From Malus domestica (lineage: Eukaryota; Streptophyta; Magnoliopsida; Rosales; Rosaceae), in contig NC_091677.1 in the NCBI RefSeq assembly GCF_042453785.1, forward strand, positions 6,667,501 through 6,731,500: 64,000 nucleotides of DNA, read 5' to 3'. A program made the position numbers and the translations under genes. The notes below the pieces were generated by a model, which was not told where the DNA came from, searched no databases, and was given only the letters and a program-made list of their open reading frames with translations. Positions 35,088 to 63,560 of the stretch are shown here, piece by piece. Each line of letters begins with the position of its first letter. Positions within the stretch are counted from its first letter, which is position 1.

Positions 35088-38000
35088 ATGAATCGATACG
35101 ATTCGAACCCTTTCGCCGACGAGGAGGTCAATCCCTTTGCGGTGAGTTCCATTACAGACCTGCATTACGAGTTTTTGGAATTGGAATTGCTGATATGTTG
35201 AAACTCCTTTGATCAGAGTGCGAAATGTTCAATGCGTTTCCGTTTCTCTTTGGAATTTGATTCCACCGGGAATTGAAATCCGCAATGTAGCTTGTTTTGA
35301 TTATTCGATGATCCGTTTCAGTTCTTAGTTGGTATCGGTTCACTTCCGGTAGATTAGAGTAGTTTAGAACATCGCATGTGTAAAGAAAGTTCCTTTCGTT
35401 TGTAACTTTCCATCTTATTACTTTTTGTTGAATTTGTAGAATGTAGGTGGAGGTGTTGCCCCTGCAAATCCAAGGCTTTCGCCCCTTCCTCCGGAACCCT
35501 ATGATCGCAATGCAACAATTGATATTCCTCTTGACAATTCAAAGGTAGTCAGCATATGGAAGATGTGGAATCACATTGTCAAGGCCTTTTGTTCATCTGT
35601 TATTAACTTATTGTACAAGCAATTAATTGTTTTCTGTTTTTCTTATTATTTTTGTTGCTATAGAGTATACAAGCAAAGGAGAAGGAACTCAAAGCTAAAG
35701 AGGCTGAATTGAAAAAGAGGGAACAGGTAATATCCTACAAACAAATTTCCCAGACCGTTACACGCAATTGTTGCAATGAGAACAGGAATAATCAACCACT
35801 TTCGATTGAATGTTTCGGTGAACAAAATATGCGTTCCAAGTTTTTATTTGGACACCATTAAGCAGTCCTTGCAACATTGATTTGAATGAGAATTTTTATT
35901 CTTTTAAACAAGTTACTCTTCTCCCCGATAAGCTACAAATATGTACATATACATGAGTCAAAATAAGCACACAAGAGGGAGCCTTCACAAAGGTTGCTTA
36001 GGAGTAGTCTCAGCAGTCGGTAGAGCCCCAGAAAGAGAAGGCACCGGAGGGGGATCATTTAGAGCCTCAGTACTAGACAGAACCCTAGAAGGAGGAGGCA
36101 TCAGAGGTTGATCATTTGGAGCTTCATTACGCGGTACAGCCCCAGAAGACGAAGGCAATAAATGCCTTTGGAACAAACCCACAAATCTCTTATGATCAAG
36201 TAAAACCTGACCATCAGTTTCCTTCATCTGGTCAAGCTTCCTCTTCATGTTTGTAGCATAGTCATGTGCGAGCCGGTGCAACTGTTTATTCTCATGCTTG
36301 AGCCCTCTAATCTCCTGTTTGAGACTCATCACTTCAGCCGCCAATGATTCAACTTGGCGGGTTCGAGCAAATAGGCGTTGGGCCATATTAGACACAGAAC
36401 CTGCACACTGAACACTGAGAGCCAGCGAATCCTTAACAGCTAACTCATCAGACCGTTTGGAAAGTAGTCTGTTATCTTTGGGAGTGAGAAGGTTCCTGGC
36501 CACCACCGCAGCGGTCATATCATTCTTCATCACGGAATCCCCAACGGTAAGAGGACCAGTAGGGGAGACGAAGGATGGGCGCCATATGTTGTCTGGAGAA
36601 GGCGGGGCTGCCTCTTCAACAAGGTTCAAGTCAAAACGACGGTCGGAGGGGCCAGACATTTTCAAAGGTGTTGAAGAGAGAAGAGGTCGGACAAATCAAG
36701 ATCTTAGAAGTGCAAGAATGAAGCTTCTACTGGTGGAGATTCAAGTGTGCTTTGGAACTTAATGCCAGCCCCTATAAAAATCTGCACTCGACGAAGCTTC
36801 AGAAATCGAAGAGGCGCCTGCTCAGAAATCGAAGAGGCGTTTGCTTTCTCAAAAGCTGGGCTGCTTAGAGATCACGAGGGTTGATCTCAGAAATCGAAGA
36901 GGCGTTTGCTTTCTCAAAAGTTGGGCTGCTCAAAGACCACGAAGGCCGATCTCAAAAATCGAAGAGGCGCTCGCTTTCTCAAAAGCTGGGCTCCCCAGAG
37001 ACCACGAGGGCCGATCTCAGAAATCGAAGAGGCACCTACTTTTCCAGCCTTTTCCAGCCTTGTCAGCACCTGTCACACGCACACTCAGTTTTGCGGAAAT
37101 TATGGGCATTCTGTCAAAGACTTCTGGGGAAGTAGAAAACATATGAATCTTACTGTTCAATCACCCACTTCCCACACGCAACAATAGCTCATGGGTACCA
37201 CAGATAACTTTGCCAAAGTTCTCTGCCAAAGTTGAGCACGTGAAGCTTGCAGCTCCCACTACATCGCTTTGACCAAGAAGGGTAAAAGAATAGCAAAGAA
37301 ACAACACTAACAAAGTTTAGACCCATAAATTTTGAAGGTCTAGCTACCATATTATTACCCACAAGGGTAAAGGAACAGTACCACTGCTGGATAATTGGAA
37401 AGTCCCTATGTGTCAACCTCTGTGCTTCGTGGCAAGGTAGACTAGCAAACATGCCCAACCTTTACTCACATTCGAGAAAACACTCCCAATAAGATTGCTT
37501 GCTCCAAAATCGAAGAGGCACCGTCCTCCGAATCTCGAGAGCCAGACTCCCAACATGACTACTTTCTTAAAAATCGAAGAGAGGGTAAAGGAACAGTACC
37601 ATTGCTGGATAATTGGAAAGTCCCTGTGTGTCAACCTCTGTGCTTCGTGGCAAGGTAGACTAGCAAACATGCCCAACCTTTACTCACATTCGAGAAAACA
37701 CTCCCAACAAGATTGCTTGCTCCAAAATCGAAGAGGCACCGCCCTCCGAATCTCGAGAGCCAGACTCCCAACATGATTACTTTCTCAAAAATCGAAGAGA
37801 CACTGCTCCCCGAATCTCGAGAGCCAGACCCCCAGCATGATTGCTTTCTCAAAAATCGATGAGGCATCGTTATCCGAATTAATCGAAGAGGCGCTCGCTT
37901 TCTCAAAAGCTGGGCTGCTCAGAGACCACGAGGGCCGATCTCAGAAATCGAAGAGGCACCTACTTTTCTAGCCTTGTCAGCACCTGTCACACGCACACTC

Positions 38001-41000
38001 AGCTTTGCAGAAATTATGGGCATTCTGTCGAAGACTTCTGGTGAAGTAGAAAGCACATGAATCTTACTGTTCAATCACCCACTTCCCACACGCAACAATA
38101 GCTCATGGGTACCACAAATAACTTTGCCAAAGTTCTCTGCCAAAGTTGAGCACGTGAAGCTTGCAGCTCCCACTACATCGCTCTGACCAAGAAAGGTAAA
38201 AGAATAGCAAAGAAACAGCAAAGAAACAGCACTAACAAAAGTTTAGACACATAAATTTTGAAGGTCTAGCTACCATATTATTACCCACAACTGTAAAGGA
38301 ACAGTACCACTGCTGGATAATTGGAAAGTCCCTGTGTGTCAACCTCTGTGCTTCGTGGCAAGGTAGACTAGCAAACATGCCCAACCTTTACTCACATTCG
38401 AGAAAACACTCCCAATAAGATTGCTTGCTCCAAAATCGAAGAGGCACCGTCCTCCGAATCTCGAGAGCCAGACTCCCAACATGACTACTTTCTCAAAATC
38501 GAAGAGAGGGTAAAGGAACAGTACCATTGCTGGATAATTGGAAAGTCCCTGTGTGTCAACCTTTGTGCTTCGTGGCAAGGTAGACTAGCAAACATGCCCA
38601 ACCTTTACTCACATTCGAGACAACACTCCCAACAAGATTGCTTGCTCCAAAATCGAAGAGGCACCGCCCTCTGAATCTCGAGAGCCAGACTCCCAACATG
38701 ATTACTTCCTCAAAAATCGAAGAGACTGCTCTCCGAATCTCGAGAGTCATACCCCCAGCATGATTGCTTTCTCAAAAATCGAAGAGGCATCGTTATCCGA
38801 ATCTCGAGAGCCAGATACCACAGACCACTTTTTCAAAGTGCTCTGACAGAGTTAAAACATGTGAAACTGGCAGCTCCCACTACCGTGCTATGACCAAGCA
38901 GGGTAAAGGAATAGCATTACTACTTGTTGTTAGGGAGACTCCTATATATGTCGACCTCCATCCCCAACGGACAGGCAGACCTGCAAAAATGCTCAACCCT
39001 TCATCATATCTGAGAGGGCACTCCCAACGAAGCCTTTCGAAATATTCAGCTTTCTTTCCCCCCGATAATACCTCTGCAAACAAGCTATACTAGAGCAAGA
39101 ATATCTCATATCATCAGGGTTAAAAGCAAGAGTATCCCATATCATGCTTTTTCCCTGTCTTTTCTTTTGGCCTTGTTTTTACCTGCAAGACAAGGAGAAA
39201 GAGAGCAATCAGTCAGCACTTGGAATCAAGCTTCCAGCCAGGAACTGACTGCCTGGAACCCCTTACCTGATTACTTACCTGGCATTGCTCTCGAGTACTC
39301 ATCTTCAACATCTTATGTTTCCAGGGAAGATTCCGCATCTGCTTGAGGAACAGATAGGGCAAGTGCGAAGGATACAAGGAAGCATGTGGAGACAAGCGTA
39401 ACAGCACACGTGCCGATACATTCATTACTCTGTCAAAAGCAAAAGTATCCCATATCAGCAGGGTGGAACGTACTCTAGATTTGATGGACTTGTTTTGACC
39501 CTCAAATTCTTCAGTCGGCCTTATACTCTGGAGGAAACCAGAAAACCCTCCAGCTCAGTTCAAGAATAAGCCTGTGGAAAGTTACTTCTTCAAAAGCAAA
39601 AGTATCTCATATCATCTCTTCTCATTTTTCTTCTCTTTATCCTTCATGCTGCTGCAAGATGGGGAGAAGGTGAACAATCAGTCGGAGCTCTGATTGCTTA
39701 CCTTGTCTGTCACCTCTTTCAGCAGACCCCCTAGCTCGGCGACTTGGGGGACTCCTACTACATGGTTTGTATCGCGCTTGACCAAGCCTGAAACTACAAG
39801 TAAGCTTCAAGTGAAATTGATACATTACCTTGTGCATCTCCACCAGTTAAAGATACCACCCCTGGATGGAGGAAGAGTACTTCCAGAGAAGATGCCACAT
39901 CTACCTATGAGACAGATAAGGCAAGTCAAGACGACACCACACTCCGATACTTAGAAGTTTCGTGATTACAAGATCATTCTCCCACAATATTTCCTAATGT
40001 CATTTGTACTAAATCATTCACTTGTACTCACTAAATGAGAGCTTGAACATATGTACTTGTGTAAACCCTTCACAATTAATGAGAACTCTTCTATTCCGTG
40101 GACGTAGCCAATCTGGGTGAACCACGTACATCTTGTGTTTGCTTTCCTATCTCTATCCATTTATATACTTATCCACACTAATGACCGAAGCAATCTAGCG
40201 AAGATCACAAAAAGCGATCGTTTTCGCTACCTAGGATCTATCTTGCAAGAGAACGGAGAATTAGATGGAGATCTCAACCATAGAATACGAGCTGGATGGA
40301 AAGAGTGCATCCGGCGTGTTGTGTGACCGTCGTAGGCCACTGAAGCTCAAGGGAAAATTTTATAGGACGGCAATAAGGCTAGCGATGTTGTATGGCACAG
40401 AATGTTGGGTGGTGAAGCATCAACACGTACACAAAATGGGTGTAGCGGAGATGAGGATGCTTCGTGGGATGTGTGGGCACACGAGAAAGGATAAGATTGG
40501 GAATGAGGATATCCGAGGTAAAGTAGGAGTAGCCGAAATTGTAGGAAATATGAGAGAAAATCGGCTCCGGTGATTTTGAACATGTGCAAAGAAGGCCGAC
40601 TGACGCTCCGGTTCGAAGATGTGACTACGGGACAGAGGTTCAGGGCCGAAGGGGTAGAGGAAGACCTAGGACAACTTTGGAAGAGACTCTAAGAAAAGAC
40701 TTAGAGTACTTGGATCTAACGGAGGACATGACACAAAACCGAGCGCAATGGCGTTCTAGGATTCATATAGCCGACCCCACTTAGTGGGAAAAGGCTTTGT
40801 TGTTGTTGTTGTAAACAAGTTACTCTTCTATTTAGTAAGTGGAGTTTACGGTTTTATTGTCCTTTTCCAGGAACTAAAGCGCAAAGAAGATGCCATAAAA
40901 CAAGGTTCATCCCTTTTCTGATATGTGCTTGTGAAAAACTATGACACCCAAGTCCAAATTTGTGATTTCCCTTGTTTTGTTCTGCAGCTGGAGTTGTTAT

Positions 41001-43085
41001 AGAGGAGAAGAACTGGCCTCCATTTTTCCCCATCATCCATCATGACATTGCAAATGAAATACCAATCCATCTACAGAGGATCCAGTATGTTGCGTTCACA
41101 ACATATTTGGGTAGGTTAAGTTTTATTTAATTTCTTTGTGATCGTTCACACAGGTGCCTCAGTTTCCAGATGATATTTGATTGCAGATTTTTCGGTGATC
41201 GCTTTTTTTTTGTTGTTGTATGTACTTTTGTAGTTTGAGTTTAAAACTGCTTACAAAAGTTATAACATTTCCAGAAAAAGGGATCTAGAAGCAATATAGA
41301 TCGCATGATTTGTTCAAATTTACTCATTATAATTCTCAGAGTTGGGTTTTGCTTTTGCATTATTCGGTTGGGTCGAGGCAATCTTGTTGAACTTTTTATA
41401 TCGTACCTGTTTTGGTACCAAAAGATCTTCTAACTACTACAACAACAACAACAACAAAGCCTTTTCCCAACAAAAAAAGATCTTCTAACTACTAAATGAA
41501 AAAATTCTGTAGTTGTTTAAGTTGACTAAGTTTATGGCACTGTTCAGGTTTGATTGTGTGTCTCCTGTGGAATATTCTGGCAGTTACCGTAGCCTGGATC
41601 CAAGGAGAAGGTTTGATCTGCGACTTAGTGTAGACCTATTAACCATTATAAATAAACTCATAATTTAGTCTGAATTTGTATCCTCTTGCAGGTGTAATAA
41701 TTTGGCTTCTGGCCATAATCTACTTACTAGCAACTGTTCCTGTAGCCTATTTCGTCTGGTATCGCCCTCTTTATCGTGCTATGAGGTACTTACGATTCCA
41801 TGGATATGACCTTGTTGTGTATTACTATGCCAAAACTGTATATGAGGCTCAAGGCCTATGCATTTAATGATTGTGCACTTCTCGGTTATCTGTCAGACAT
41901 ATCTTTTATCTTATACTTTTTTTCTTCCTGTTATTTGTTCATCCTAACATATTAGGTCTCATAGTTGTAATTGTGTACCATCTATTACAGGACTGATAGT
42001 GCTCTGAGTTTTGCTGGGTTTTTCTTGTCTTATCTGGTGAGTTTTGTTCTTACTGCAGTTATATTTTCTGCTTTCAAGATGTGAAAATTAGCTCGCTTTT
42101 GTGCCCTGATTTTCTTTTTGCAGCTTCATATTGCGTTTTGCATTTACGCTGCAATTGCTCCTCCAATCTTCTTAAAAGGGAAATCTATCACGTAAGTTTT
42201 CTTTACTGTGCAGTCTACAAGGTTTACTAATCGCTCAGTTACATTCATTCTTTCGTTTAGGGAGGAACGAGGCAGAAATGAAAAATGAATAAGGGATGCA
42301 TCATTCAAAATCATAGTTTTCAGCTTAACATTGCATTAGTGGATAATTTGCATCCATATGTGGGCTACTCCTATAATTATGATTTCGTGCAGACCTTGTT
42401 AGCTAAACTTTTCTCCCAATATTTGGCATCTTGTAGTCGTATTCTATTTCTGCAATGAAGAAATGTATATTAATCGTATTTCCTCTTGAATACTGTTTTC
42501 TTTCTGCTCTGAAGCTCATTTTTTTCTGTGGTGTGATCATGTTGACAGGGGTATTTTGCCTGCAATACAACTGATGAGTTACAACGTTTCGGTTGGGGTA
42601 AGTTTCAGGCTTTCAGTATTACATGTTGGCTTCCATATTGTCCTTAAGTAATTGCAAGCGGCAGACAACTTTGGTTGTCAGCTACACAGCAATCTAGCAG
42701 TGTTAGTGACAAGAATTTTTCAGTTCAATCGAAAAACTTGGAACTGTTGGATTGCTCCGTCAGTGGTTTGATCTTGAAGTTTTCTCTTGAGTTGATGACG
42801 CGGTAAAGACTCAGACTTTGTTTCTTCATTTCAGATACTCTACTTCATTGGATTTGCATTGTACGTCTTGGAAACGCTTCTCAGCATTTGGGTTATTCAG
42901 GTTCGACGATTAACAAACTTGCGTTCTTCTCTTGCCCTTGACTCTGCGTTTCTTCCCCCTCTTCGGAGAAACTGACTCTTTGTGCGTCGTATTTGCAGCA
43001 AGTATACACGTATTTCCGAGGCAGCGGAAAGGCAGAAGAGGCGAAGCGGGAGGCTGCACGAACCACCATGATGGCAGCAATATGA
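35088..43085 (+). CDS. SCAMP: Secretory carrier-associated membrane protein (SCAMP)
   Basis: Twelve exons: 35088-35141, 35440-35544, 35664-35726, 40871-40904, 40988-41110, 41548-41610, 41692-41785, 41991-42036, 42124-42191, 42549-42597, 42835-42900 and 42999-43085. All have GT-AG borders and consistent phases, giving 283 residues, the usual plant SCAMP length. Two NPF motifs at residues 7-9 and 15-17 bind EH-domain endocytic proteins. Residues ~53-85 are a coiled coil ([22 protein letters not shown]). Then come the amphipathic [13 protein letters not shown] segment, four transmembrane helices, and the conserved cytosolic loop [13 protein letters not shown] between helices 2 and 3. The C-tail is short and basic. 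SCAMPs cycle between trans-Golgi/early endosome and plasma membrane. Intron 3 is 5.1 kb because of a composite retroelement; the flanking splice sites are untouched. Confidence 0.95.
35985..36659 (-). CDS. Antisense ORF of composite retroelement, coiled-coil protein
   Basis: Open frame of 224 residues starting [18 protein letters not shown], on the strand opposite to the RTE tail. A central region ([20 protein letters not shown]...[20 protein letters not shown]) has heptad spacing and should form a coiled coil. The C-terminal third has repeated (S/P)S(G/R)(A/V)(L/V)-type 20-residue units ([40 protein letters not shown]). No enzyme motif is seen. Similar predicted proteins occur in Rosaceae annotations as 'hypothetical' by my recall. 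It is intact here but has stops in the sister copy (49564-50238). It may be a retroelement gene or a captured host fragment. Confidence 0.55.
   Translation of the reverse strand: MSGPSDRRFDLNLVEEAAPPSPDNIWRPSFVSPTGPLTVGDSVMKNDMTAAVVARNLLTPKDNRLLSKRSDELAVKDSLALSVQCAGSVSNMAQRLFARTRQVESLAAEVMSLKQEIRGLKHENKQLHRLAHDYATNMKRKLDQMKETDGQVLLDHKRFVGLFQRHLLPSSSGAVPRNEAPNDQPLMPPPSRVLSSTEALNDPPPVPSLSGALPTAETTPKQPL
36780..38850. repeat. Nested tandem arrays inside composite element copy 1
   Basis: Three scales are visible. First, ~65-bp units built on AATCGAAGAGGCG...GCTTTCTCAAAAGCTGGGCT, four copies at 36808-37040. Second, ~60-bp units with CCGAATCTCGAGAGCCAGA around 37500-37880 and 38440-38830. Third, a ~920-bp block starting GGCACCTACTTTTC at ~37031 repeated at ~37951. 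A ~210-bp unit with GGAACAGTACCA(C/T)TGCTGG recurs at ~37380, 37590, 38295 and 38515. Copy 2 has the 920-bp block only once. Open frames here simply reflect the periodicity. Confidence 0.85.
40211..40810 (+). pseudogene. RTE LINE 3' end (C-terminal RT region), truncated
   Basis: Encodes [20 protein letters not shown], then with frame changes [43 protein letters not shown] and [22 protein letters not shown]...RIHIADPT. This is the C-terminal domain after the RT of plant RTE-clade LINEs. A frameshift near 40300 and a stop near 40574 break it. It ends in (TTG)n at 40798-40810. Confidence 0.85.
41440..41474 (-). mobile_element. 35-bp RTE insertion in SCAMP intron 5
   Basis: The 20-bp repeat AAAAGATCTTCTAACTACTA occurs at 41420-41439 and 41475-41494. 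Between them the minus strand reads TTGTTGGGAAAAGGCTTTG followed by TTG repeats, the same 3' terminus as the RTE tails at 40810 and 53608. It is a fully 5'-truncated RTE copy carrying only the terminal ~25 bp and the TTG tail. Confidence 0.85.
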
Positions 43086-43834: not shown

Positions 43835-46217
43835 ATGATGCTTCACAGCCAGAGTTACAGCTCCATGGAATTAGGGCAAGAAAGTTTCCAGAGCTCAATT
43901 CACCGTCGCCGCACTTTTTCACCAAGTAAGCTTCGAAACCCCCATCAATGTCCTTTCAGAGCTAGGGCTTTTCTAGAATTTAACTTACCCAATTCTCCGA
44001 ATTTCGAAAAGATTGTGAATTCACGAGCTCAGATACAGAATTTGAGAGGTTCTAGGGTTTTTGTAGGGTTTAAGATTCAGTGTCATTCGAAATCTTCGGT
44101 TTTGCCCACGAAGGTTTCTTCGATTAACGGTAAGAAGAAGGGGTATGGAGGCGTGTTGTCTTCGATTTTGCGGTCTATAGAGTCCGAAAATGATGTTGAA
44201 AAGACCCTTAATTCGTTAGGTGAAAATTTGAATCCGAAAGAACAGACTGTTATTCTCAAGGAACAAAAAAGCTGGGAAAGGGTTCTGCGTGTTTTCGAGT
44301 GGTTCAAGGCACAGAAGGAGTATGTTCCTAATGTAATACACTATAATGTGGTGCTTCGGAAATTGGGTAGGGCTCAGAAGTGGGATGAATTGAGGCTTTG
44401 TTGGATTGAAATGGCGAAAAGGGGTGTTCTGCCAACAAACAACACGTATGCAATGCTCGTTGATGTGTATGGGAAAGCCGGCCATGTGAAGGAAGCGCTT
44501 TTGTGGATTAAGCACATGAAACTGAGGGGAATGTTTCCGGATGATGTTACAATGAATACAGTTATTCGGGCCTTGAAGCATGCAGGAGAGTTTGATAGGG
44601 CTGATAAGTTTTATAAGGATTGGTGCACCGGGAAGATTGAGCTCGATGAACTAGATTTGAATTCAATGGGTGACTGTGAATAGTTATGGCTCAGAGCCTA
44701 TTAGTTTTAAGCATTTCTTGTCCACTGAACTTTTCAAGACAGGTGGGAGAATTCCCACATCAAAGGTTACGACCTCATTGGATACACAGAACTCTGTTCA
44801 AAAACCACGACAGGCATCTACATATAATGCTTTGATTGATTTGTACGGGAAGGCAGGGCGTCTGGATGATGCAGCTAATGTGTTTGGAGAAATGATGAAA
44901 TCTGGGGTCCCAATGGATGTCTTAACTTTCAACACTATGATCTTTACTTGTGGAAGTAATGGGCATTTGTCGGAAGCAGAAACTTTGCTTAGCAAGATGG
45001 AAGAAAGGGGAATTTCTCCTGACACAAGAACTTGTAACATTTTTCTATCTCTGTATGCTGATATGGGGAACATTGATGCTGCTCTGAACTGTTATAGGAA
45101 GATCAGAGAGGTGGGTCTTTCCCCGGATGTTGTCTCTCACAGGACTATTCTTCACATGTTATGTGAGAGAAACATGGTCCGAGAAGTGGAGACTGTGATT
45201 CAGGATATGGAGAAATCTGGTGTGCGTGTCAATGAGCATTCTGTTCCTGGTGTCATCAAGATGTATATTGCTGAAGGAAAGCTTGATCGGGCTAAGTTGT
45301 TTTACAAGAAATGCCAGTTGAATGGTGAGTTATCATCAAAGACATGTGCAGCAATTATAGATGCTTATGCTGAAAAGGGATTTTGGACTAAAGCTGAGGC
45401 GGTATTCTATAGGAAGAAAGACTTGGTAAGACAAAAGAAGGATGTTATGGAGTATAATGTCATGATCAAAGCTTCTGGTAAGGCAAAGCTTTATGATAAA
45501 GCTTTTTAACTCTTCAAGGGCATGAGAAATCATGGGACTTGGCCCGATAACTGCACATATAATTCTCTCATTCAAATGTTCTCAGGAGGTGATTTAGTGG
45601 ACCAGGCAAGGGATGTTTTAACTGAAATGCGGGAAATGGGTTTTAAGCCACACTCTCTAGCCTTCTCTGCTCTTATTGGATGCTGTGCTCGCCTTGGCCA
45701 GCTTTCTGATGCAATTGATGTGTACCAAGACTTGGTCAATTCGGGAGTAAAACCAAATGAATTTGTATATGGTTCTTTGATCAACGGATTTGTAGAAAAT
45801 GGCAGAGTTGAAGAAGCATTGAAGTATTTTCGTCACATGGAAGAATCTGGGATTTCTGCAAATCAAATAGTTCTTTCATCCCTCCTAAAGGCATATGGTA
45901 AGGTGGACTCCCTTGACGGAGCGAAAGTACTCTATGAGAGAATGAAAGATCTAGAGGGTGCCCGAGATATTGTTGCATCTAACAGCATGATTGATCTTTA
46001 TGCAGACCGTGGGATGGTGTCTGAAGCCGAATTGATTTTTGAAAAACTGAGAGCCAAGGGTTGGGCAAATGAGATAACATATGCGACCATGATATATCTT
46101 TACAAGAGTATGGGCATGCTTGATGAAGCCATTGATATAGCAGAGGAAATGAAACTGTCAGGTCTGGTGAGGGACTGCGGTTCATTTAACAAGGTAATGT
46201 CATGTTATGCCATTAAC

Positions 46218-49200
46218 ATTCCATCGGCACCCGGGTGCAGTGTTAAATGAGCAAGGGGGCCATAGAAACTTCTTTTCGAACGACTCCACTCAAAGTTGTT
46301 TGGGAGCATATGCTCCTATCAACTTTACACAGGACACACAAAAGAAGTACTTTGATCCTATTAGACGGGGGAAGGTGAAGAAGCTAGGACAGAAGGGTAG
46401 AGTTCAAGAGAGTAGAATGCGTTTAGGAACGTGGAATATAGGAACCTTAACGGGAAAATCTATGGAAGTAGTGGAAGTTATGGTGAGGAGAAGGATAAAT
46501 ATTATGTGCCTACAAGAAACTAAGTGGGTTGGTCTTAAGGCAAAGGATTTAGAAAACTCAGGGTTTAAACTTTGGTATTCGGGCACAAATAGAACGAGAA
46601 ACGGTGTTGGCATCATCGTGGACAAGACCTTGACACAAGATGTTGTAGATGTCAAGAGGGTAGGAGATAGAATCATGGCAATCAAGATTGTAATAAGACA
46701 AGAACTCATCAATGTGATTAGTGCGTACGCACCTGAAGTAGGGTTGGATACGAGTTCGAAGGAGAAATTTTGGGAAGACCTTGGAGACTTGGTGCAAGGA
46801 ATTGCTCAGACGGAGAAGTTATTTATAAGAGGAGATTTAAATGGACACGTGTGTAGGGAGACAGGCAACTATGGAGGTTTTCATGGTGGCCATGGTTTTG
46901 GGGAGAGAAACGAAGATGGGGAAGCTATCTTGGATTTTGCAATGGCATGTGATCTCTTCTTAGCCAACACCTTCTTTAAGAAGGGAGAAGAACATGTGAT
47001 CACCTACAAGAGTGGGTCGTCAAAAACACAAATAGATTTTCTTCTAATGAGGAAAGGGGATCGTATAACTTGTAAGGATTGCAAAGTTATACCGGGAGAG
47101 AGCTTGGCTAATCAACATCGTTTGTTGGTGATGGATGTACATATCAAAAGAGTGAGAAAAAATAACAAGACTTGGAAGTGCCCAAGGACTAGATGGTGGA
47201 ATCTAAAAAGAGAAAAACAAGCAATTTTCAAAGAGAAAGTAATCACCCAATGTGTGTGGGATAGAGAGGGGGAAGCTAGCGAAGGGTGGGATTCCATGGC
47301 TAGTTGTATCCGAAAAGTAGCAAAAGAGGCATTAGGAGAGTCCAAGGGTTTTGCTCCACACCAAAAGGAATCTTGGCGGTGGAATGAGGAGGTACAAACA
47401 AAGGTGAAGGCTAAGAAGGAATGTTGTAAAATCTTATACAAGGATAAGACCGATGAAAATGGTGAAAGGTATAGAAGAGCGAAGCAAGAGGCGAAGAAAG
47501 CTGTGAGAGAAGCTAACTTAGCGGCTTATGACGATATGTATAAGCGACTAGATACCAAAGAAGGAGAGTTGGATATCTATAAACTAGCTAGAGCAAGGGA
47601 AAAGAAGACAAGGGACCTAAACGAAGTGAGGTGCATCAAGGATGAGGATGGAAAGGTTCTTGCTACAGAGAACGTGGTCAAAGACAGATGGAGAGGTTAT
47701 TTTCATAATCTTTTCAATGAAGGACATGAAAGGAGTACTTTTTTAGGAAAGTTGAGTAACTCAGAAGAGTGTAGAAACTACTAATTTTATCGTCGAATTA
47801 GGAAGGAAGAAATGGTTGTAGCTTTGAAGAATATGAAGCATAGAAAAGCAGTGGGCCCAGACGATATACCGATCAAAGTGTGGAAAGTCTTGGGAGAGAC
47901 AGGTATAGTATGGCTCACTGACCTTTTCAATAGGATTTTGAAAACGAAAAAGATGCCAAATGAGTGGCGAAAGAGCACTTTGGTGCCTATCTACAAGAAT
48001 AAGGGTGACGTACAAAATTGCATGAACTATAGAGGTATTAAGCTAATGAGTCATACAAAGAAGCTCTGGGAAAGAGTCATTGAGCATAGATTGAGGCAAG
48101 AGACACGGGTTTCGGACAACCAATTCGGGTTCATGCCAGGGCGCTCAACCATGGAGGCAATCTATCTCTTACGAAGATTGATGGAAAGATATAGAGATGG
48201 GAAAAAAGATTTACACATGGTCTTTATAGATTTGGAAAAAGCGTATGATAGGGTCCCAAGAGACATTCTTTGGAGGATTTTAGAGAAGAAAGAAGTACGA
48301 GTAGCATATATCCAAGCTATAAAGGATATGTATGAAGGAGCAAAGACTACCGTAAGAACTCATGAAGGACAAACCGAAAGCTTCCCCATAATTGTAGGAT
48401 TACATCAAAACTCATCCTTAAGTCCTTACCTTTTTGCGTTGGTAATGGATGAGTTAACAAGACATATTCAAGATGATATTCCTTGGTGTATGCTTTTCGC
48501 AGACGATATAGTGTTGATAGATGAAACTCAGGAAGGGGTAAATGCGAAGCTTAACCTTTGGAGAGAAGTGTTGGAATCTAAAGGTCTTCGCCTAAGCCGA
48601 TCAAAGACAGAATATATGGAGTGTAATTTCAGTGCAAATAGAGGCCAAAATGAGTTAGGGGTGAGGATCGAAGATCAGGAAATACCAAAGAGCGACCGTT
48701 TTCGCTACCTAGGATCTATGTTGCAAAAGAATGGAGAATTAGATGGAGATCTCAACCATAGAATACAAATTGGATAGATGAAGTGGAATAGTGCATCTGG
48801 CGTGTTGTGTGACCACCGTATGCTACTGAAACTCAAGAGAAAATTTTATAGGAATACAATAAGGCCGGCGATGCTGTATGGCACATAATGTTGGGCGGTG
48901 AAACATCAACACGTACACAAAATGGGTGTAGCGGAGATGAGGATGTTTCGTTGGATGTGTGGGCACACGAGAAATGATAAGATTAGGAATGAGGATATCC
49001 AAGGTAAAGTAAGAGTAGTCGAAATTGTAGGAAAACTGAGAGAAAATCGGTTACGGTGGTTTGGACATGTGCAAAGAATGCCTACTAACGCTCCGGTTAG
49101 AAGATGTGACTACGGGATAGAGGTTCATGGCCGAAGGGGTAGATGAGGACATAGGAAAACTTTGGAAGATAGATGAAAACATAGGAAAACTTTGGAAGAT

Positions 49201-49303
49201 ACTCTAAGAAAAGACTTAGATTACATGGATCTAACGGAGGACATGACACATAACCGAGTACAATGGCGTTCTAAGATTCATATAGCAGACCCCACTCAGT
49301 GAC
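46218..49303 (+). mobile_element. RTE-clade LINE, nearly full length, 3' end lost
   Basis: Starts within the PPR coding region near CCATCGGCACCCGGG and carries endonuclease and RT in one frame. It stops at AGACCCCACTCAGTG (49303), ~25 bp short of the normal GGGAAAAGGC(TTG)n end, where the composite element begins. No target duplication is found at its left edge. A ~38-bp tandem duplication (ACATAGGAAAACTTTGGAAGA) lies at ~49148-49200. Confidence 0.85.
46417..49300 (+). pseudogene. RTE LINE ORF: AP-like endonuclease plus reverse transcriptase
   Basis: From ATG 46417 the frame reads MRLGTWNIGTLTGKSMEVVE, an exonuclease-endonuclease-phosphatase fold with CLQETKW, RGDLNGHV and TQIDFLLMR...NQHRLLVMDV motifs (46417-47130). 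A linker follows, then RT with [43 protein letters not shown] and an intact catalytic FADDIVL near 48500. It would nick target DNA and prime reverse transcription there. Breaks: TAA at 47782-47784, TAG at ~48775 where the family has Trp (GW to G-stop), TAA at ~48887 and others. The upstream gene context is the PPR pseudogene. Confidence 0.9.
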
Positions 49304-49563
49304 TTGGATTTTTCAAGTCTCAAACCAAGAAGTTTTCCTCACTCGAGAAATTAAGGGAACACTACCTCAACCTACATGCTCCACTCACAAAGCTTCAACA
49401 TACAAGCTTCAACAAAAGGAAAATTCAAAGAACTTAGTGAAGAAGGCTTTGGTGTATTTAACACAATACGTTGAAATGAAGTAAAATTTATTTATTGATA
49501 TCTCCGATAAGTTACAAATATGTACATATACATGAGTCAAAATAAACAAACAAGAGGGAGCAT

Positions 49564-50238
49564 TCACAAAAGTTGCTTAGGAGAAGTCTCAGCAGTCGGT
49601 AGAGCCCCAGAAAGAGAAGGCACCGGAGGAGGATCATTCGGAGCCTCAGTACTGGACAGAACCTTAGAATGAGGAGGCATCGGAAGTTGATCATTTGGAG
49701 CTTCATTACGCGGTACAGCCCCAGAAGACGAAGGCAATAAATGCCTTTGGAACAAACCCACAAACCTCTGATGATCAAGTAAAATCTGACCATCAGATTC
49801 CTTCATCTAGTCAAGCTTCATCTTCATGTTTGTAGCATAGTCATGTGCGAGCCGGTGTAACTGTTTATTCTCATGCTTGAGCCCTCTAATATCCTGTTTG
49901 AGACTCATCACTTCAGCCGCCAATGATTCAATTTAGCGGGTTCGAGCAAATAGGCGTTGGGCCATATTAGACACAGAACCTGCACACTGAACACTGAGAG
50001 CCAGATAATCCTTAACAGCCAACTCATCAGATCGTTTGGAAAATAGTCTGTTATCTTTGGGGGTGAGAAGGTTCCTGGCCACCACCGCAGCGGTTATATC
50101 ATTCTTCATCATGGAATCCTCAACGGTAAGAGGACCAGTAGTGGATAAGAAGGATGTGCACCATATGTTGTCTGGAGAAGGCATGGCTGCCTCTTCAACA
50201 AGGTTCAAGTCAAAACGACGGTCGGAGGGGCCAGACAT
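49564..50238 (-). pseudogene. Antisense coiled-coil ORF of composite element, broken
   Basis: Same protein as 35985-36659, starting [18 protein letters not shown] at 50238. Stops are present near 49934 (a codon after the RTR motif) and near 49808 (before MKESDGQ). The remaining sequence is about 90% alike by eye. Confidence 0.75.
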
Positions 50239-50369
50239 TTTCAAAGGTGTTGAAGAGAGAAGAGGTCGGACAAATCAAGATCTTAGAAGTGTAAGAAAGG
50301 AGCTTCTACTAGTGGAGATTCAAGTGTGCTTTGGAACTTAATGCCAGCCTCTATAAAAATCTGCACTCG

Positions 50370-51300
50370 ACGGAGCTTCAAAAATCGAAGAGGCGTTTGC
50401 TTTCTCAAAAGTTGGGTTACTCAGAGACCACGAGGGCCGATCTCAAAAATCGAAGAGGTGTTTGCTTTCTCAAAAGCTGGGCTGCTCAAAGACCACGAAG
50501 GCCGATATCAGAAATCGAAGAGGCGCTTGCTTTCTCAAAAGCTGGGCTGCTCAGAGACCACGAGGGCCAATCTCAGAAATCGAAAAGGCACCTGCTTTTT
50601 CAGCCTTATCAGCACCTGTCACATGCACACTCAGCTTTGCGGAAATTACGGGCATTCTGTCGAAGATTTCTGGTGAAGTAGAAAGCACGTGAATCTTACT
50701 GTTCAATCATCCACTTTCCACACGCAACATCAGCTCATGGGTACCACAGATAACTTTGCCAAAAATCTCTGACAAAGTTTAGACACGTGAAGCTAGCAGC
50801 TCCCACTACATCGCTATGACCAAGAAGGGTAAAAGAATAGCAAAGAAACAGCACTAACAAAGTTTAGACACATAAATTTGGAAGGTCTAGCTACCATATT
50901 ATTACCCATAAGGGTAAAGGAACAGCACCACTGCTGGATAATTGGAAAGTCCCTGTGTGTCAACCTATGTGCTCCGTGGCAAGGTAGACTAGCAAACATG
51001 CCCAACCTTTACTCACATTCGAGAAAACACTCCCAACAAGATAGCTTGCTCCAAAATCGAAGAGGCACCGCCCTCCGAATCTCGAGAGCCAGACTCCCAA
51101 CATGATTACTTTCTCAAAAATCGAAGAGACACCGCTCTCCAAATCTCGAGAGCTAGACTCCCAGCAGAATTGCTTTCTCAAAAATCGAAGAGGCACCGTT
51201 CTCCGAATTTCGAGAGCCAGATCCCCGACAAGATTGCTTGTTCGAAAATCGAAGAGGCACCGCTTTCTTAACTTCGAGAGCCAGATCTTATTGGATAAAG
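50370..51300. repeat. Tandem arrays of composite element copy 2
   Basis: Four ~65-bp units with AATCGAAGAGG(C/T)G...CTTTCTCAAAAGCTGGGCT at 50382-50590, and five ~60-bp units with CCGAATCTCGAGAGCCAGA-like cores at 51052-51285. They are separated by unique sequence. The array has the same order as copy 1 but is shorter. Confidence 0.85.
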
Positions 51301-52807
51301 TTTGTCTGTAATCTTCACAAGCAACATCAGTTTTCCAGATACCACAGACCATTTTTTCAAAGTGCTCTGACAGAGTTAAAACACGTGAAGCTGGCAGCTC
51401 CCACTACCGTGCTATGACCAAGCAGGATAAAGGAATAGCATTACTATTTGTTGTTAGGGAGACTCCTATATATGTCGACCTCCATCCTCAACGGACAGGC
51501 AGACTTGCAAAAATGCTCAACCATTCCCCATATCTGAAAGGGCATTCCCAATGAAGCCTCTCGAAATACTCAGCTTTCTTTCCCCCCGATAATACCTCTG
51601 CAAACAAGCTACACCAGAGTAAGAATATCTCATATCATCAGGGTTAAAAGCAAGAGTATCCCATATTATTCTTTTGGCCTTGTTCTTACCTGCAAGACAA
51701 TGAGACAGAGAGCAATCAGTTAGCACTTGGAATCAAGCTTCCAGTCAGGAACTGACTGCCTGGAACCCTTTACCTGATTACTTACCTGATATTGCTCTCG
51801 AGTACTCATATTCAACATCTTATGCTTCCAGAGAAGATACCACATCTGCCTGAGGAACAGATAGGGCAAGTGAGAAGGATACAAGGAAGCATGTGGAGAC
51901 AAGCGTAACAGAACATGTGCCAATACATCCACTACTTTGTCAACAACAAAAGTATCCCATATCAGCAGGGTCGAACGTAGTCTAGATTTGATGGACTTGT
52001 TTTGACCCTCAAATTCTTTAGTCGGCCTTATACTCTGGAGGAAACCAGAAAACCCTCCAGCCCAGTTCAAGAATAAGCCTGTGGAAAGTTACTTCTTCAA
52101 AAGCAAAAGTATCTCATATCATATCTTTTCATTTTTCTTCTCTTTATCCTTCATGCTACCTGCAAGATAGGGAGAATGAACAATCAGCCGGAACTCGAAA
52201 TCAAACTTCTGATCTGGGACTGATTGCTTGGAGCTCTGATTGCTTACCTTGTCTATCATCTCTTTCAGCAGATCCCCTAGCTCGGCGACTTGGGGGACTC
52301 CTACTACATGGTTTGTATCGCGCTTGACCAAGCCTGAAACTACAAGTAAGCTTCAAGTGAAATTGATACATTACCTTGTGCATCTCCACCAGTTAAATAT
52401 ATCACCCCTGGATGGAGGAAGAGTACTTCCAGAGAAGATGCCACATCTACCTATGAGACAGATAAGGCAAGTGAAGACGATACCACACTTCGGTACTTAG
52501 AAGTTTCGTGATTACGAGATAATTCTCCCACAATATTTCCTAATGTCATTTGTACTAAATCATTCACTTGTACTCACTAAAAGAGAGCTTGAACCTATGT
52601 ACTTGTGTAAACCCTTCACAATTAATGAGAACTCCTCTACTTCGTGGACGTAGCCAATCCGGGTGAACCACGTACATCTTGCGTTTGCTTTCCTGTCTCT
52701 ATCCATTTACATACTTATCCACACTAATGACCGAAGCAATCTAGCGAAGATCACAAACTTAATACTTTCTGTTGTACCAAAGTCCTCACTGATTTTGTGC
52801 ATCAACA

Positions 52808-53608
52808 ATCCTTAAGTCCTTACCTTTTTGCGTTGGTAATGGATGAGTTAACAGGGACATATTCAAGATGATATTCCTTGGTGTATGCTTTTCGCAAACG
52901 ATATAATGTTGATAGATGAAACTCAGGAAGGGGTAAATGCGAAGCTTAACCTTTGGAGAGAAGTGTTAGAATCTAAAGGTCTTCGCCTAAGCCGATCAAA
53001 GACAGAATATATGGAGTACAAGTTCAGTGTAAATGGAGGCCAAAATGAGTTAGGGGTGAGGATCGGAGATCAGGAAATACCAAAGAACGACCGTTTTCGC
53101 TACCTAGGATCTATCTTGCAAAAGAACGGAGATTTAGATGAAGATCTCAACCATAAAATACAAGCTGGATAGATGAAGTGGAAGAGTGCATCCGACATAT
53201 TATGTGACCGTCATAGGCCACTGAAGCTCAAGGGAAAATTTTATAGGACAACAATAAGGCCGGCGATGTTGTATGGCACAGAATGTTGCTGGGTGAAGCA
53301 TCAACACGTACACAAAATAGGTGTAACGGAGATGAGGATGCTTCGTTGGATGTGTGGGCACACGAGAAATGATAAGATTAGGAATAAGGATATCCGAGGT
53401 AAAGTAAGAGTAGCCGAAATTGAAGGAAATATGAGAGAAAATCGGTTACGGTGGTTTGGACATGTGCAAAAAGGCCTACTGACGCTACGGTTCGAAGATG
53501 TAACTACGAGAGTACTTGGATCTAACGGAACACAAAACCGAGCGCAATGGCGTTCTAGGATTCATATAGCCGACCCTACTTAGTGGGAAAATGCTTTGTT
53601 GTTGTTGT
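52808..53608 (+). pseudogene. RTE LINE 3' tail (partial RT and C-terminal region)
   Basis: Corresponds to 48414 onward of the RTE above. The catalytic box reads FANDIML where the neighbour has FADDIVL, so it could not encode a working RT. It carries the same Trp-to-TAG stop (GGATAG before ATGAAGTGG, 53170) as the upstream RTE copy, showing close common ancestry. An internal deletion removes part of the C-terminal basic region near 53500. Confidence 0.85.
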
Positions 53609-54140
53609 ATTCATAATATTGAAAAAAAGTGTTTCAGTTGAAGCAGTGACGCAGTTAGAGTCATCCTACCATGAAGGGAAACCTTACTCTAGGCAAGCTG
53701 TCATCACCATTGTCTTCTCTATGGTGGGTATGCATGCTTTGGTGTTCGAGTCCTGTGAGAAATTCACAAAAGCTAATGTAAAGCTCGATTCTTTTCTCTA
53801 TAACATCGCGATATATGCTTATGGGGCTGCTGGGGTGATCGACAAGGCTCTGAACATGTTCATGAGAATGCAAGATGAAGACCTGGAGCCAGACGTTGTA
53901 ACATATATTAACCTAGTATGTTGCTATGTAAAAAATGGTATGGTCGAAGGTGTGAAGCGAATATACAGCCGGTTGAAATACGGAGAGATAGAGCCAAATC
54001 ATTCCTTGTACAAAGTTGTTATGGATGCCTATACAGATGCCAACAGGCATGACCTTGCCAAACTGGTTAGCCAAGAGATGAGATATGAGTTCTACTCAGA
54101 ACAAAAGACTGGTTCCGAAACTAAAGACGAGTCCGATTAG

Positions 54141-55740: not shown

Positions 55741-56584
55741 GCAACAAAGTATTTCATCAGCAAACTAATAAGAGAGGCAACAAAGTATGTCATCGGCAAA
55801 GTGATAATAACTGTACGTGATAAGAACAAACTTATCAAATTCCCAAGACAATCCTAACCTATTTTGTCAGTTCACATCCACCAATTGCTCATGATCTCCT
55901 TCCCATATTCTTCCTAATCCTATTTTGTCAGTTCACGTCCCCCAATTGTCAGTTCGCATCCCCCAATTCCTCATGATCTCCCTCCCATAATATTTCTATT
56001 CTTATTTTGTTGGTTCACATCCCCTAATTACTCATGATCTCCCTCCCACATTCTTCGCTCTCAGCGTGCCATCCAATTTCACTTTTGTAAGAATTCCTAT
56101 TTATCATGTAACAACTTGGCGGGGTCTTTCCCGCTCAAAAACAATTTTGACGATCCTAAATCCCTAAGTTTATATATTAGGGTTCTTACACTCTTAACTG
56201 ACTCTCATCCACATCTCTACTTCAATCATCTCTCTCGCATCTCTCGCTCTTATGATCATCTCCATAATTTTGCAGAAGCAGCAACCATAAGCAACCAAGC
56301 AACCAGGCTTAATGGTAAGGATATAACCAAACTATTTAATATATTGCTTAATTATAGTTTGGTTCAAGACCTTTAGGCTACCCTTACTTTTTGTTCTGAT
56401 TTTTTCTTAGTTAGGGCATGTTATTGTTCGACTCTTGTAACTTGGGGTGCACTACAAATTGAAGTAAAGTTTTTTATTTGGATTTTTTATGCGTCAATGT
56501 CTTTGATTTTTATTATTACCAATGAATTGCAATGCACTGCATATGTGTATTTACATTTAACTTAAACTTTTTTTTTTTTTGTAG

Positions 56585-58500
56585 ATGCCAATGATTAGCC
56601 AAAAAAGGAAACAACCTCTTATGTCAACAGGAATCTTGCCTCTACCATCCCAGTCACGGTTTACATCTGCTATCGGAGCTGCTCCTCTTACTTTTCGTCA
56701 AGAAAGGAATAAGCCTGATATTTTGAGGCAAACTTATCTTTCTCGCACACAATCTCATTTTATGGGTACGACCGGGAGTGATGCTGCTCAGTTAGAGCAA
56801 AAAAACATTGATCATTCATGACCTTGGCGGGGAAACACTGTACCTTCTTCACCCTGTACTTGTTCCCAAACCATAAGTGGTGTGAGTGGGACCAATCTTC
56901 CTCGCACCCAATCCCAACCCGTAATTGGTACTAGGGAAACTTCTTATCAACATTGAGACACAGTAGGATCCCAGCTTGATGATACTCATAATGATTTACC
57001 TACTGAAGCACGTACTAGAAAGATGAGTGAAGTTCGTCGTTGACATGGGAGTAAGAAATTAAAAAAACTAATGTTATATACCATGATGAACAATGTCATT
57101 ACGTTACACCAATTACCATTGCATATTAATGCATTTTTGCTTTTCCATTGTATGTGTTAATGGTTTTGTACAAAACTTACCAGATGAAAGACCAGTGCGC
57201 AGGGTATGTCGGTTGGTTAAAACCAATCGTATTGTTCGTATTATGTAAGCAAAGATCAAGGTCGTTATAGACCCAGTGCACATGCGAGCAACTAATAAAG
57301 TTGTTCATAGATTGTTGGCATATGATACGAGGGCTATTGTTCACTAACACTGCCTAATGAACATGATATATTAGAAAAGAATGTCTGACGAGTCAAAGTC
57401 AAACCTCATCTCGGAGATCACTGTGAGTAGAACCATTAATTTAAGACATATACTTTGTAATAATCTCTATAATGACTTGAATTTTACTTTAGAAACATAA
57501 TGTATTTTGTTTTAGTTTTGGTTTAAATTTATTGGAATAAAATCACAACTGTTTTTAATTATCTCAGGTGAACTTTGACTTGGACACCAATATTAAAGGA
57601 TATTATGATTATGTTGATATACTCATGTCTAGATGATACAAGGAGTTCAAGTATGAGTTACATGCATACTTTTTAGAGTGGGCATCGGCTGAGGAGGCAT
57701 TGGCCAATCCTCCGATAGAGATAAACTTAAGACTTGGGGAACCTGGACAGTAGGAGTTTTTATGCGAACATTTTCAGTTAGAGAAGTTTCTGGTATTGTT
57801 TTAGTTGATTCATGCATGCATTTAGTCTTAATTTTTTTTGTTAGGTATATGGCACTAGCTAAGAAACTGTTGTTGTGTTGTGAAATATAGAAACAATCAA
57901 AGGCTAACAAAAAAAATCGAGCCCAAAAGAAGTATGAGCATCACGCTGGTTCACGCCTACTTGCCTACATAGTGGAAGAGTGTACACAGATTAAGCAATG
58001 AATGTTTTAATGCTATGTTTGTAGCAAATTAGAATTTGGTGTATACATTTTGGGTTTGAGGGATAAGGACTTTTGACCAAATATAAGGTTTTGTTATTTA
58101 AGAATCTAGTTGCTAGCATGATCCATTTTTATGGCTACTTAATTTCTGCCATTTATATTTGACCTTATATATTGATAATTACAATCTTTGAACCTAAAAT
58201 AATAAATGGCAGGCGGGTTCCCAATTCCCTGAGATTGCTTATGCCGGGAAGAACAAAAACTGGACCAATTAGACTGCCAAGTCCAAATTTGTAAGTCTAA
58301 AATTGTATATTGTTTTAGTTTTGCATAATAAAAGAAGCTATAAATTCTGGATGAAGTTCTAATCTATGTTTTTTATTTGAAAAAATAAAGGATGAGATGG
58401 TTGCTAGGAAAGAGGATTATCTTAATGAATTAGCAAAGGATTATCCAGAGTATACTCCATTGAATGAGATAGTAGTACCTGATCAAGATGTTGGCCTTCA
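56585..58500 (+). pseudogene. Transposase_24-like gene, left arm copy
   Basis: Discontinuous coding signals: MPMISQKRKQPLMSTGILPL...HFMGTTGSDAAQLEQ (56585-56821), VCRLVKTNRIVRI...AKIKVVIDPV (57210-57290), MSDESKSNLISEIT (~57380-57425), NFDLDTNIKGYYDYVD (~57572-57620), EFKYELHAYFLEWASAEEAL (~57647-57706), FLCEHFQLEKFL (~57760), QSKANKKNRAQKKYEHHAGS (57895-57948) and MVARKEDYLNELAKDYPEYT (58397-58456). The (S)K-NK-NR-K-KY-HHAGS motif is characteristic of Transposase_24 (PF03004) proteins carried by plant CACTA-type elements; the family call is from memory. Several stops occur between the segments and the splice structure is unresolved. The protein may act in DNA transposition. Confidence 0.6.
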
Positions 58501-62539: not shown

Positions 62540-63560
62540 AGCATCACTCCCAGTTGCACCACCCATAGAATGAGATTGTGTGTGAGAAAGATAAGTCTAC
62601 CTCAAAATATTAGGCATGTTCCTCTCTTGACGAAAAGTAGGAGGAGCAGCTCTAATAACAGATGTAGACCGTGACTAGGATGGCAGAGGTGGGATTCTTG
62701 TTGACACAAGAGGTCATTTCCATTTTTGGCTAATCATTGGCATCTACCAAAAAAAAAAAAACGAAGTTTAAGTTAAACGTAAATACATATATGCAGCATT
62801 GGAATTCATTGGTAAGAATAAAAATCAAAGACATTGACGCATAAAAAAATCCAAATAAAAAACTTTACTTCAATTTGTAGTGCACCTTAAATTACAAGAG
62901 CCGACAATAACATGTCTTGACCAAGAAAAAATCAAAACAAAAAGTAATGGTAGCCTAAGGGTCTTGAACCAAACTATAATTAAGCAATATATTAAATAGT
63001 TTGTTATATCCTCACCGTTAAGCTTGGTTGCTTGTGGTTGTTGCTTCTGCAAAATTTTGGAGATGATCGTGAGAGTGAGAGAAGTGAGAGAAATGATAGA
63101 GGCAGAGACATGGATGAGAGTCAGTTAAGAGTGCGAGAACCCTAATATATAAACTTAGAGATGTAGGATCATCAAAATTATTTCTGAGCGGGAAAGACCC
63201 CACCAAGTTTTTACATGATAAGTAGGAATTCTTACGAAAGTGAAATCGGATGGCGCTTTGAGAGAGAAAAATATGGGAGGGAGATCATGAGCAATTGGGG
63301 GATGTGAACCGACAAAATAGGAATAGAAATATTATGGGAGGGAGATAATGAGCAATTGGGGGATGTGAAACGACAAAATAGGATTGGGAAGAATATGGGA
63401 GGGTGATCATGAACAATTGGGGGATGTGAACCGACAAAATAGGTTAGGATTGCCTTGGGAATTTGATAATTTGTTCTTATCATGTAGAGTTATTATCACT
63501 TTGCCGATGACATACTTTGTTGCCTCTCTTATTAGTTTGCCTATGAAATATTTTGTTGCC

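Follow-up and report, generated by a model that had tools for sequence, protein, structure and literature searches.

An RTE-type LINE family in apple that carries the 3' end of a gypsy element and a second RTE 3' end

Within a 64,000-nucleotide stretch of the apple (Malus domestica) genome (NC_091677.1, positions 6,667,501 to 6,731,500; hereafter the window), we found two copies of a composite retrotransposon family. Overall, the family is very probably best explained as an RTE-type LINE lineage that carries a gypsy 3' end and a second RTE 3' end and is moved whole. The full-length unit of ~8.3 kb is larger than an initial annotation of the window had described. It consists, in order, of an RTE 5' end with a 1052-codon APE-RT ORF (RTE-a), a ~4-kb gypsy 3' end comprising an antisense ORF, tandem repeats and the 3' LTR, a second RTE 3' end (RTE-b) and a (TTG)n tail. 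Each unit has one LTR and neither a 5' LTR nor gag-pol. The element is probably an autonomous LINE of RTE type with an LTR-element 3' extension rather than a non-autonomous LTR-driven element.

Copy 1 (35923..40812; features are on the forward strand unless noted) is a 5'-truncated composite cut within the gypsy-derived part. It is enclosed, as first described, by an exact 17-bp target site duplication (TSD), AAACAAGTTACTCTTCT, at 35906..35922 and 40813..40829 (18 bp counting the preceding T); the right end lies at 40829 and not at 40827. The 5' end of this copy falls within internal gypsy sequence rather than within the LTR, and the copy contains an antisense ORF of 224 codons of the aORF-3R kind (35985..36659, reverse strand), the first 173 residues of which gave no match in a Pfam search. 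This is followed by tandem arrays with units of ~65 and 218 bp within a 0.92-kb direct duplication (36821..38815) and by the gypsy 3' LTR without its last 50 bp (39763..40211), delimited by alignment with three parent loci and comparison with copy 2. The missing 50 bp were lost in a deletion that extends into RTE sequence, with a short microhomology at its breakpoint. RTE-b of copy 1 (40208..40812) is an RTE 3' end with the (TTG)n tail common to 30/30 loci; the initial annotation had recognised this RTE sequence at the 3' end. The 5' part had been called LARD-like; its antisense ORF and arrays are present, but its identity is that of a gypsy 3' end, with the whole 3' LTR in copy 2. Copy 1 matched 16 of 20 fetched copies in one piece at 98.7-99.3% identity (L038, L042 and L046 match in pieces, and L043 is short), and its full-length relatives reach ~3.4 kb further 5'.

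Copy 2 is an older composite that forms a single block (46220..53608). Its longer junction had been noted correctly, whereas its start had been placed at 49304; the block opens further upstream with the RTE coding region. The copy sits in a PPR gene, where 28 codons are replaced and ~84 bp of target are lost. RTE-a (46220..49302) is an APE-RT coding region that is by now interrupted by stops. It finishes with CACTCAG, and the TGA that follows is created at the junction. The gypsy 3' internal region (49303..52308) holds the antisense ORF (49564..50238, reverse strand, two internal stops) and the arrays and extends to a complete 3' LTR of 499 bp (52309..52807; TGGTTTG...CATCAACA). RTE-b (52808..53608) runs from ATCCTTAAG, which equals RTE-a at 48414, to the (TTG)n tail. 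The family thus has two subfamilies, a younger one with the short junction, including copy 1, and an older one with the long junction, including copy 2.

Both ends of the LTR were located by comparison with other loci. Its end in copy 2 was set with a probe of the LTR end plus primer binding site (PBS), and the same terminus was seen in 20/20 sampled loci. In the search with this probe, all 62 bases of LTR end and PBS matched at 94-98% in 8/40 scored loci, and the motif after the LTR terminus, which related loci share, is one that we take to be of Tat/Athila type. The LTR start, located by alignment at three parent or related loci with LTRs of 481-514 bp, matches 52309. This is 3 kb downstream of the left junction between RTE-a and gypsy sequence (TGACTTGG), which therefore lies within internal gypsy sequence. 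Since LTRs also begin with TG, the TG found at the left junction could suggest LTR-LTR ectopic recombination between two RTE copies carrying LTR insertions; we rejected this origin as extremely improbable because the parent LTRs start 3 kb downstream. For the same reason we dropped the idea that the 3.5 kb of copy 2 is, in its entirety, one solo LTR.

With an antisense ORF upstream of the 3' LTR, the inserted part appears to be the 3' portion of a Ty3/gypsy element similar to the Tat/Retand type. Retand/Grande/RIRE2-type gypsy elements are described as having an antisense ORF between pol and the 3' LTR (PMC7264820), and the composite shares this order as well as tandem repeats like those of Retand. 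It differs from them in lacking gag-pol and the 5' LTR, in having LINE ends and in being moved by LINE machinery.

The composite moves as one unit, as had been proposed. Out of 1528 candidates, 40 loci were scored, and the whole 351-base query across the 40.2-kb junction matched at 40/40. At 39 of these the bit score was lower than that of the window itself by the equivalent of one mismatch; the shared junction is no chance join. The RTE-a 3' end was 100% identical over 109 bp in 38/40 scored loci (of 1034 candidates). All 30 loci read end at the RTE (TTG)n, and their right flanks are unrelated, with no common 200-bp flank, placing the copies in sites of their own. TSDs of 9-21 bp were clear in 12/22 copies, and a search in the same 22 copies gave none that was clear in the other 10. 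Exact flank matches of at least 9 bp occurred in 10/22 copies and in 0/462 mismatched pairs; in two more copies the match lies at a distance. Because of the recurrent junction, the (TTG)n ends with unrelated flanks and the TSDs, we conclude that RTE-type (LINE) retrotransposition moves the composite whole. Gypsy relatives are abundant (10277 first-look candidates for an antisense-ORF variant), and look-alike loci might have come about through independent nested insertions or through segmental duplication of DNA. A single junction, TSDs around whole units, unrelated right flanks at every locus read and variable 5' truncation make this vanishingly improbable.

The 5' ends of the copies bear on where the RNA starts. 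The initial annotation had envisaged a non-autonomous family with an LTR promoter, in which RTE protein, acting in trans, uses the RTE 3' end to copy RNA that started in the LTR. LTR and RTE tail do have the same orientation, and both short copies among the 30 loci (L014/L043 and L029) have their 5' ends within the LTR, at distances of 107 and 119 bp from where it begins. However, the RTE-a coding region lies upstream in 19/20 fetched copies, and in 7/20 the first base lies no more than ~40 bp away from the canonical RTE 5' end. In the fetched set, 5' ends are spread over RTE-a in 11 copies and lie in the gypsy part in one, and in eight they are at most 130 bp from the RTE 5' end; copy 1 also begins in internal gypsy sequence. 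By a rough estimate, two starts 12 bp apart are not unusual among 22 copies of an 8.3-kb element, and two short copies are too few to tell whether there is a preferred 5' end at the LTR. An LTR-driven, non-autonomous element is therefore very unlikely, although a minor LTR-started RNA could still exist, given both short copies.

Seven copies retain the start codon of the 1052-codon ORF; in three of them (L035, L046 and L048) the ORF is open throughout, and in four it is broken. The 1052-aa product of L048 contains Exo_endo_phos (PF03372) and RVT_1 (PF00078) domains above cut-off. Compared with the older copy 2, the ORF has a dN/dS of 0.42-0.48 (for the L040 counts, Fisher p = 2.7e-5), and it carries fewer amino-acid changes than expected under neutral drift. 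The dead copy 2 branch contributes part of this dN/dS contrast. To speak of selection after the fusion assumes one fusion common to both subfamilies, as the identical left junction suggests. Selection on the antisense ORF, also considered, is unsupported because its dN/dS is 0.79 against copy 2, where it has two stops.

RTE elements are characterised by a single APE-RT ORF, 5' truncation and variable TSDs; a tail directly after the ORF is their usual layout and not a defining feature. The composite has the single APE-RT ORF, the (TTG)n tail, 5' truncation and variable TSDs, and its assignment to RTE rests on tail, ORF plan and TSDs rather than on a tree. It departs from the usual layout: ~4.9 kb, including the gypsy LTR and the second RTE 3' end, separate the ORF stop from the (TTG)n tail. 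The ORF stop region joined to the tail matched two loci at 95%, as known by match coordinates. Two LTRs and a constant TSD of 4-6 bp would mark LTR-retrotransposon insertion, and the composite has one LTR and TSDs of variable length. Plant RTE-clade LINEs are reported to end in (TTG)n (PMC3747384); the composite differs by the long segment after the stop.

These features suggest a mechanism in which the composite RNA would start at the RTE 5' end and extend from AACTCCGCCTATGTC across RTE-a, the region of the antisense ORF and RTE-b as far as (TTG)n. RTE-a protein translated from this RNA would act in cis, using the tail of RTE-b to prime reverse transcription, and the whole RNA would be copied into a new site, with variable target duplications and frequent early stops that leave 5'-truncated copies.

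For the origin, we infer from two junctions that a gypsy element may have inserted into an RTE copy with its 3' LTR abutting RTE-b, and that read-through RNA with the RTE tail would have been reverse transcribed by RTE protein. The enzyme would then have switched templates, landing on the 3' end of RNA from an ordinary RTE; only the ~20 last bases of that RNA are missing in the fusion. A later ~320-bp deletion across the LTR/RTE-b junction would have given rise to the younger subfamily including copy 1. LTR read-through into RTE sequence, part of the initial proposal, may also fit the founding event: in copy 2 and at 20/20 sampled loci of its type, RTE-b follows the 3' terminus of the LTR with no base between them. 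The exact abutment is also expected of DNA insertion, and the same mobile LINE could have been fused at the DNA level, from a tandem of RTE-a and a gypsy-interrupted RTE-b in which the RTE-a tail was deleted and transcription read through (3' transduction). Left and right probes gave composites first and revealed no gypsy parent that continues beyond the RTE-a junction on its upstream side, and because of this a DNA deletion between neighbouring elements could yield the same left junction. P0085-type loci represent a gypsy relative that is further removed, and their left flank gave no convincing alignment to that of the composite. A fusion by DNA deletion must take just the last ~20 bases of RTE-a plus any gypsy sequence before the junction, whereas a template jump to the acceptor 3' end yields the left junction directly; we regard DNA-level fusion as possible and somewhat doubtful, and favour the template jump.

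Primate SVA and LAVA elements also combine LTR-derived and repeat modules moved by LINE machinery; they encode no reverse transcriptase and depend on L1, which mobilises them in trans. The composite, with an APE-RT ORF that is open in several copies, differs in having its own reverse transcriptase. LINE chimeras formed by template switching have been described in Magnaporthe, among them a tripartite one with direct repeats of 14 bp on either side (PMC2104539). They resemble the composite in that RNAs were fused by a LINE enzyme; they are described as chimeric retropseudogenes, whereas the composite forms a single family that is passed on by inheritance and has a LINE ORF that is still open. 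HODOR, enriched at putative centromeres, is likewise present in high copy in apple (PMC13334179, PMC6901071); it is set apart here by its description as an LTR element, not by sequence. A search of open-licence PubMed Central papers listed nothing that names the composite; Repbase or the 2017 apple genome paper may list it.

The family shows that the two great retrotransposon classes have fused in nature into an element that retained its own machinery and proliferated, and how new mobile elements can arise from parts of others. It fits RTE tail recognition, in that an RNA with ~5 kb extra past the stop moves if RTE 3' sequence ends it, and an LTR and an antisense ORF are dispersed by a LINE route. 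That the captured gypsy end aids the LINE, through RNA 3' processing, escape from RTE-directed silencing or antisense-ORF activity, and so made this a leading young RTE lineage, seeding LTR and antisense promoters, is speculative and rather unlikely.

The composite may also mislead annotation. A survey of Rosaceae reported a LINE clade among LTR elements (PMC11197308), and this clade might be linked to misannotation of the composite type. Relatives of the antisense ORF number 2434 database proteins at E <= 0.001; among the best 120 listed, many are hypothetical or unnamed Malus proteins. These relatives stem both from the composite and from gypsy elements.

A search of the 651-Mb assembly (19 contigs) with a 351-base junction query matched the whole query at all 40 loci scored of 1528 candidates, in 39 of them with a bit score one mismatch under the window's own. 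We examined 30 of these loci at 3.35 kb each, copy 1 (35923-40812) included; each terminates in an RTE 3′ end and (TTG)n tail, and the 200 bp to the right are not shared by any pair. In copy 1 an antisense ORF and tandem arrays are followed by an LTR piece and the RTE 3′ end with (TTG)n, and the perfect 17-bp duplication reported around it is indeed exact, at 17-18 bp. The initial annotation was thus right that there is a multi-locus family mobilised as one unit: the composite is a real family moved whole by RTE-type machinery. A 28-bp stretch on the minus strand at 41442-41469 repeats 40785-40812, in the RTE tail region, without mismatch; it may be where a further RTE copy or a SINE ends.

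Longer sequence was taken for 20 of the 39 junction loci outside the window. RTE coding sequence (RTE-a) precedes the gypsy-like body in 19, as in copy 2 in the window (46220-53608), the exception being L043 with only 951 bp; copies inspected base by base join at CACTCAG|TGACTTGG. The order of parts first described stands, as does the existence of a second copy, but the full unit exceeds 4.9 kb and the second copy begins before 49304. Leftward extension of nine long copies placed the start within ~40 bp of AACTCCGCCTATGTC... in seven, exactly there in three (L035, L039 and L048), and ~130 and ~790 bp inside the RTE 5′ end in L040 and L033; the full composite is ~8.3 kb long. These starts near the RTE 5′ end, with RTE-a upstream in 19/20 copies, speak against the proposed LTR promoter.

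We compared flanks for target-site duplications (TSDs) in 22 copies: the 20 longer ones, copy 1 and L029, added for being short. The longest exact left/right match was at least 9 bp in 10 of the 22 versus none of 462 mismatched pairs, where the maximum was 8 bp; the weakest of the ten is L032, a 9-bp case 12 bp off the 5′ end. A wider search covered L032 and the 12 copies without a match (left flank < 400 bp for L032, L034 and L050). It yielded a 17-bp TSD ~88 bp upstream in L037 and a 21-bp TSD ~190 bp upstream in L044, with an internal deletion; two 13-14 bp matches in L038 lie far from both ends and were left out of the count. Junction loci thus lie each in their own duplication, as anticipated, in 12/22 copies (ten by flank match, two by the wider search), and a clear duplication was absent after both searches in the other 10.

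The composite is a LINE that carries its own ORF and is extended at the 3′ end by part of an LTR element. The RTE-a ORF (1052 codons; Exo_endo_phos and RVT_1 domains) has a stop codon created by the junction (TGA after CAG). It is open in L035, L046 and L048, which speaks against the description of the family as non-autonomous, open but missing its start in L040, and broken in L036, L039, L042 and L049. Compared with the stop-containing RTE-a of copy 2, dN/dS is 0.42-0.48 (L040: 48 synonymous and 88 non-synonymous differences; Fisher p = 2.7e-5). The LINE protein was probably maintained by selection after fusion, a timing we propose because copy 2 is already fused with the same left junction. 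The antisense ORF gave no sign of selection in the copy 2 comparison (dN/dS 0.79, two stops in copy 2). In the model first put forward, an LTR-started, non-autonomous RNA is copied by RTE protein. The two short copies seen in the 30 loci (L014/L043 and L029; ~0.95 kb) have their 5′ ends within the LTR, 107 and 119 bp from where it begins and 12 bp apart, possibly at an LTR transcription start, which slightly favours that model. Two starts this close among 22 copies are, however, unremarkable by a rough count; the model remains very improbable, but an LTR-started side route may exist.

We probed the LTR end with 62 bases, 41 of them LTR end joined to a PBS motif, which we take to be of Tat/Athila type. 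All 62 matched, the genome being one base shorter, at 8 of 40 scored loci (94-98%), so that CATCAACA is very likely the true LTR 3′ terminus; in the remaining 32 the match runs only a few bases beyond the LTR. At three of the eight loci, blastn found no match at the expected LTR start at E ≤ 1e-3. MAFFT and local alignments both start at TGTTTGTA..., with differing flanks before it and composite sequence upstream of it unmatched; the score exceeded 500 shuffles at two loci and only equalled the best shuffle at L087. Implied LTR lengths are 481-514 bp, and from where these alignments begin we place the 3′ LTR of copy 2 at 52309-52807 (499 bp). Upstream of it lie tandem repeats and the antisense ORF. 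Passages of PMC7264820 describe the same order, antisense ORF then 3′ LTR, in Retand, Grande and other gypsy elements; the inserted part is Tat/Retand-like, judged by LTR, PBS match and ORF. Among antisense ORF relatives, the best 120 of 2434 are 87-99% identical, and those named are all Malus proteins. A more distant version (10277 first-look candidates) has no stop in 139 of 150 scored, and all six loci examined there share an upstream sequence, presumably Tat/Athila-like.

The LTR end of copy 2 joins the RTE 3′ part (RTE-b) at ATCCTTAAG, a join kept in 20/20 loci sampled (from 40 scored, 1977 candidates), a few with single base changes; ~320 bp spanning it are missing from copy 1 and its relatives at 99% identity. 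This young subfamily has a mean pairwise divergence of 0.35-0.67% by region (19 copies, L043 left out) and, judged by sequence in a sample chosen by similarity to copy 1, is a recent burst. With a probe of RTE-a end plus ordinary RTE tail (40 loci scored of 1034 candidates, judged from match positions), 38 loci, on two chromosomes, have 109 identical RTE-a bases and a match that stops at the junction; two match the ordinary RTE end at 95%. Because the right junction is the LTR terminus, a gypsy element would have inserted into RTE-b. The left junction falls within gypsy sequence; RTE-a is complete there but for its last ~20 bases. A read-through transcript ending in an RTE tail may then have formed, and the left junction would have come from a single template jump onto the 3′ terminus of an RTE RNA. 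This would be the simplest course; its main rival starts from a tandem arrangement and invokes a small deletion. LINE enzymes are already known to jump between templates (PMC2104539).

Copy 2 interrupts an At1g73710-like PPR gene (43835-46219 and 53609-54140). The left flank aligns with a Malus relative in the protein database, P0121 (1009 aa), as far as residue 796, and the right flank resumes at residue 825. Copy 2 has no clear duplication because the 28 codons in between are absent from the target at the insertion point. The same gene carries two further lesions, a frame break near 44670 and a stop near 45507. Elsewhere in the window, a ~1-kb sequence occurs twice in inverted orientation (55741-56785 and 62540-63559; 87% identical), and short direct repeats lie several kb apart (22005-22282/24904-25178 and 3082-3285/6954-7157; 96-97% identical).
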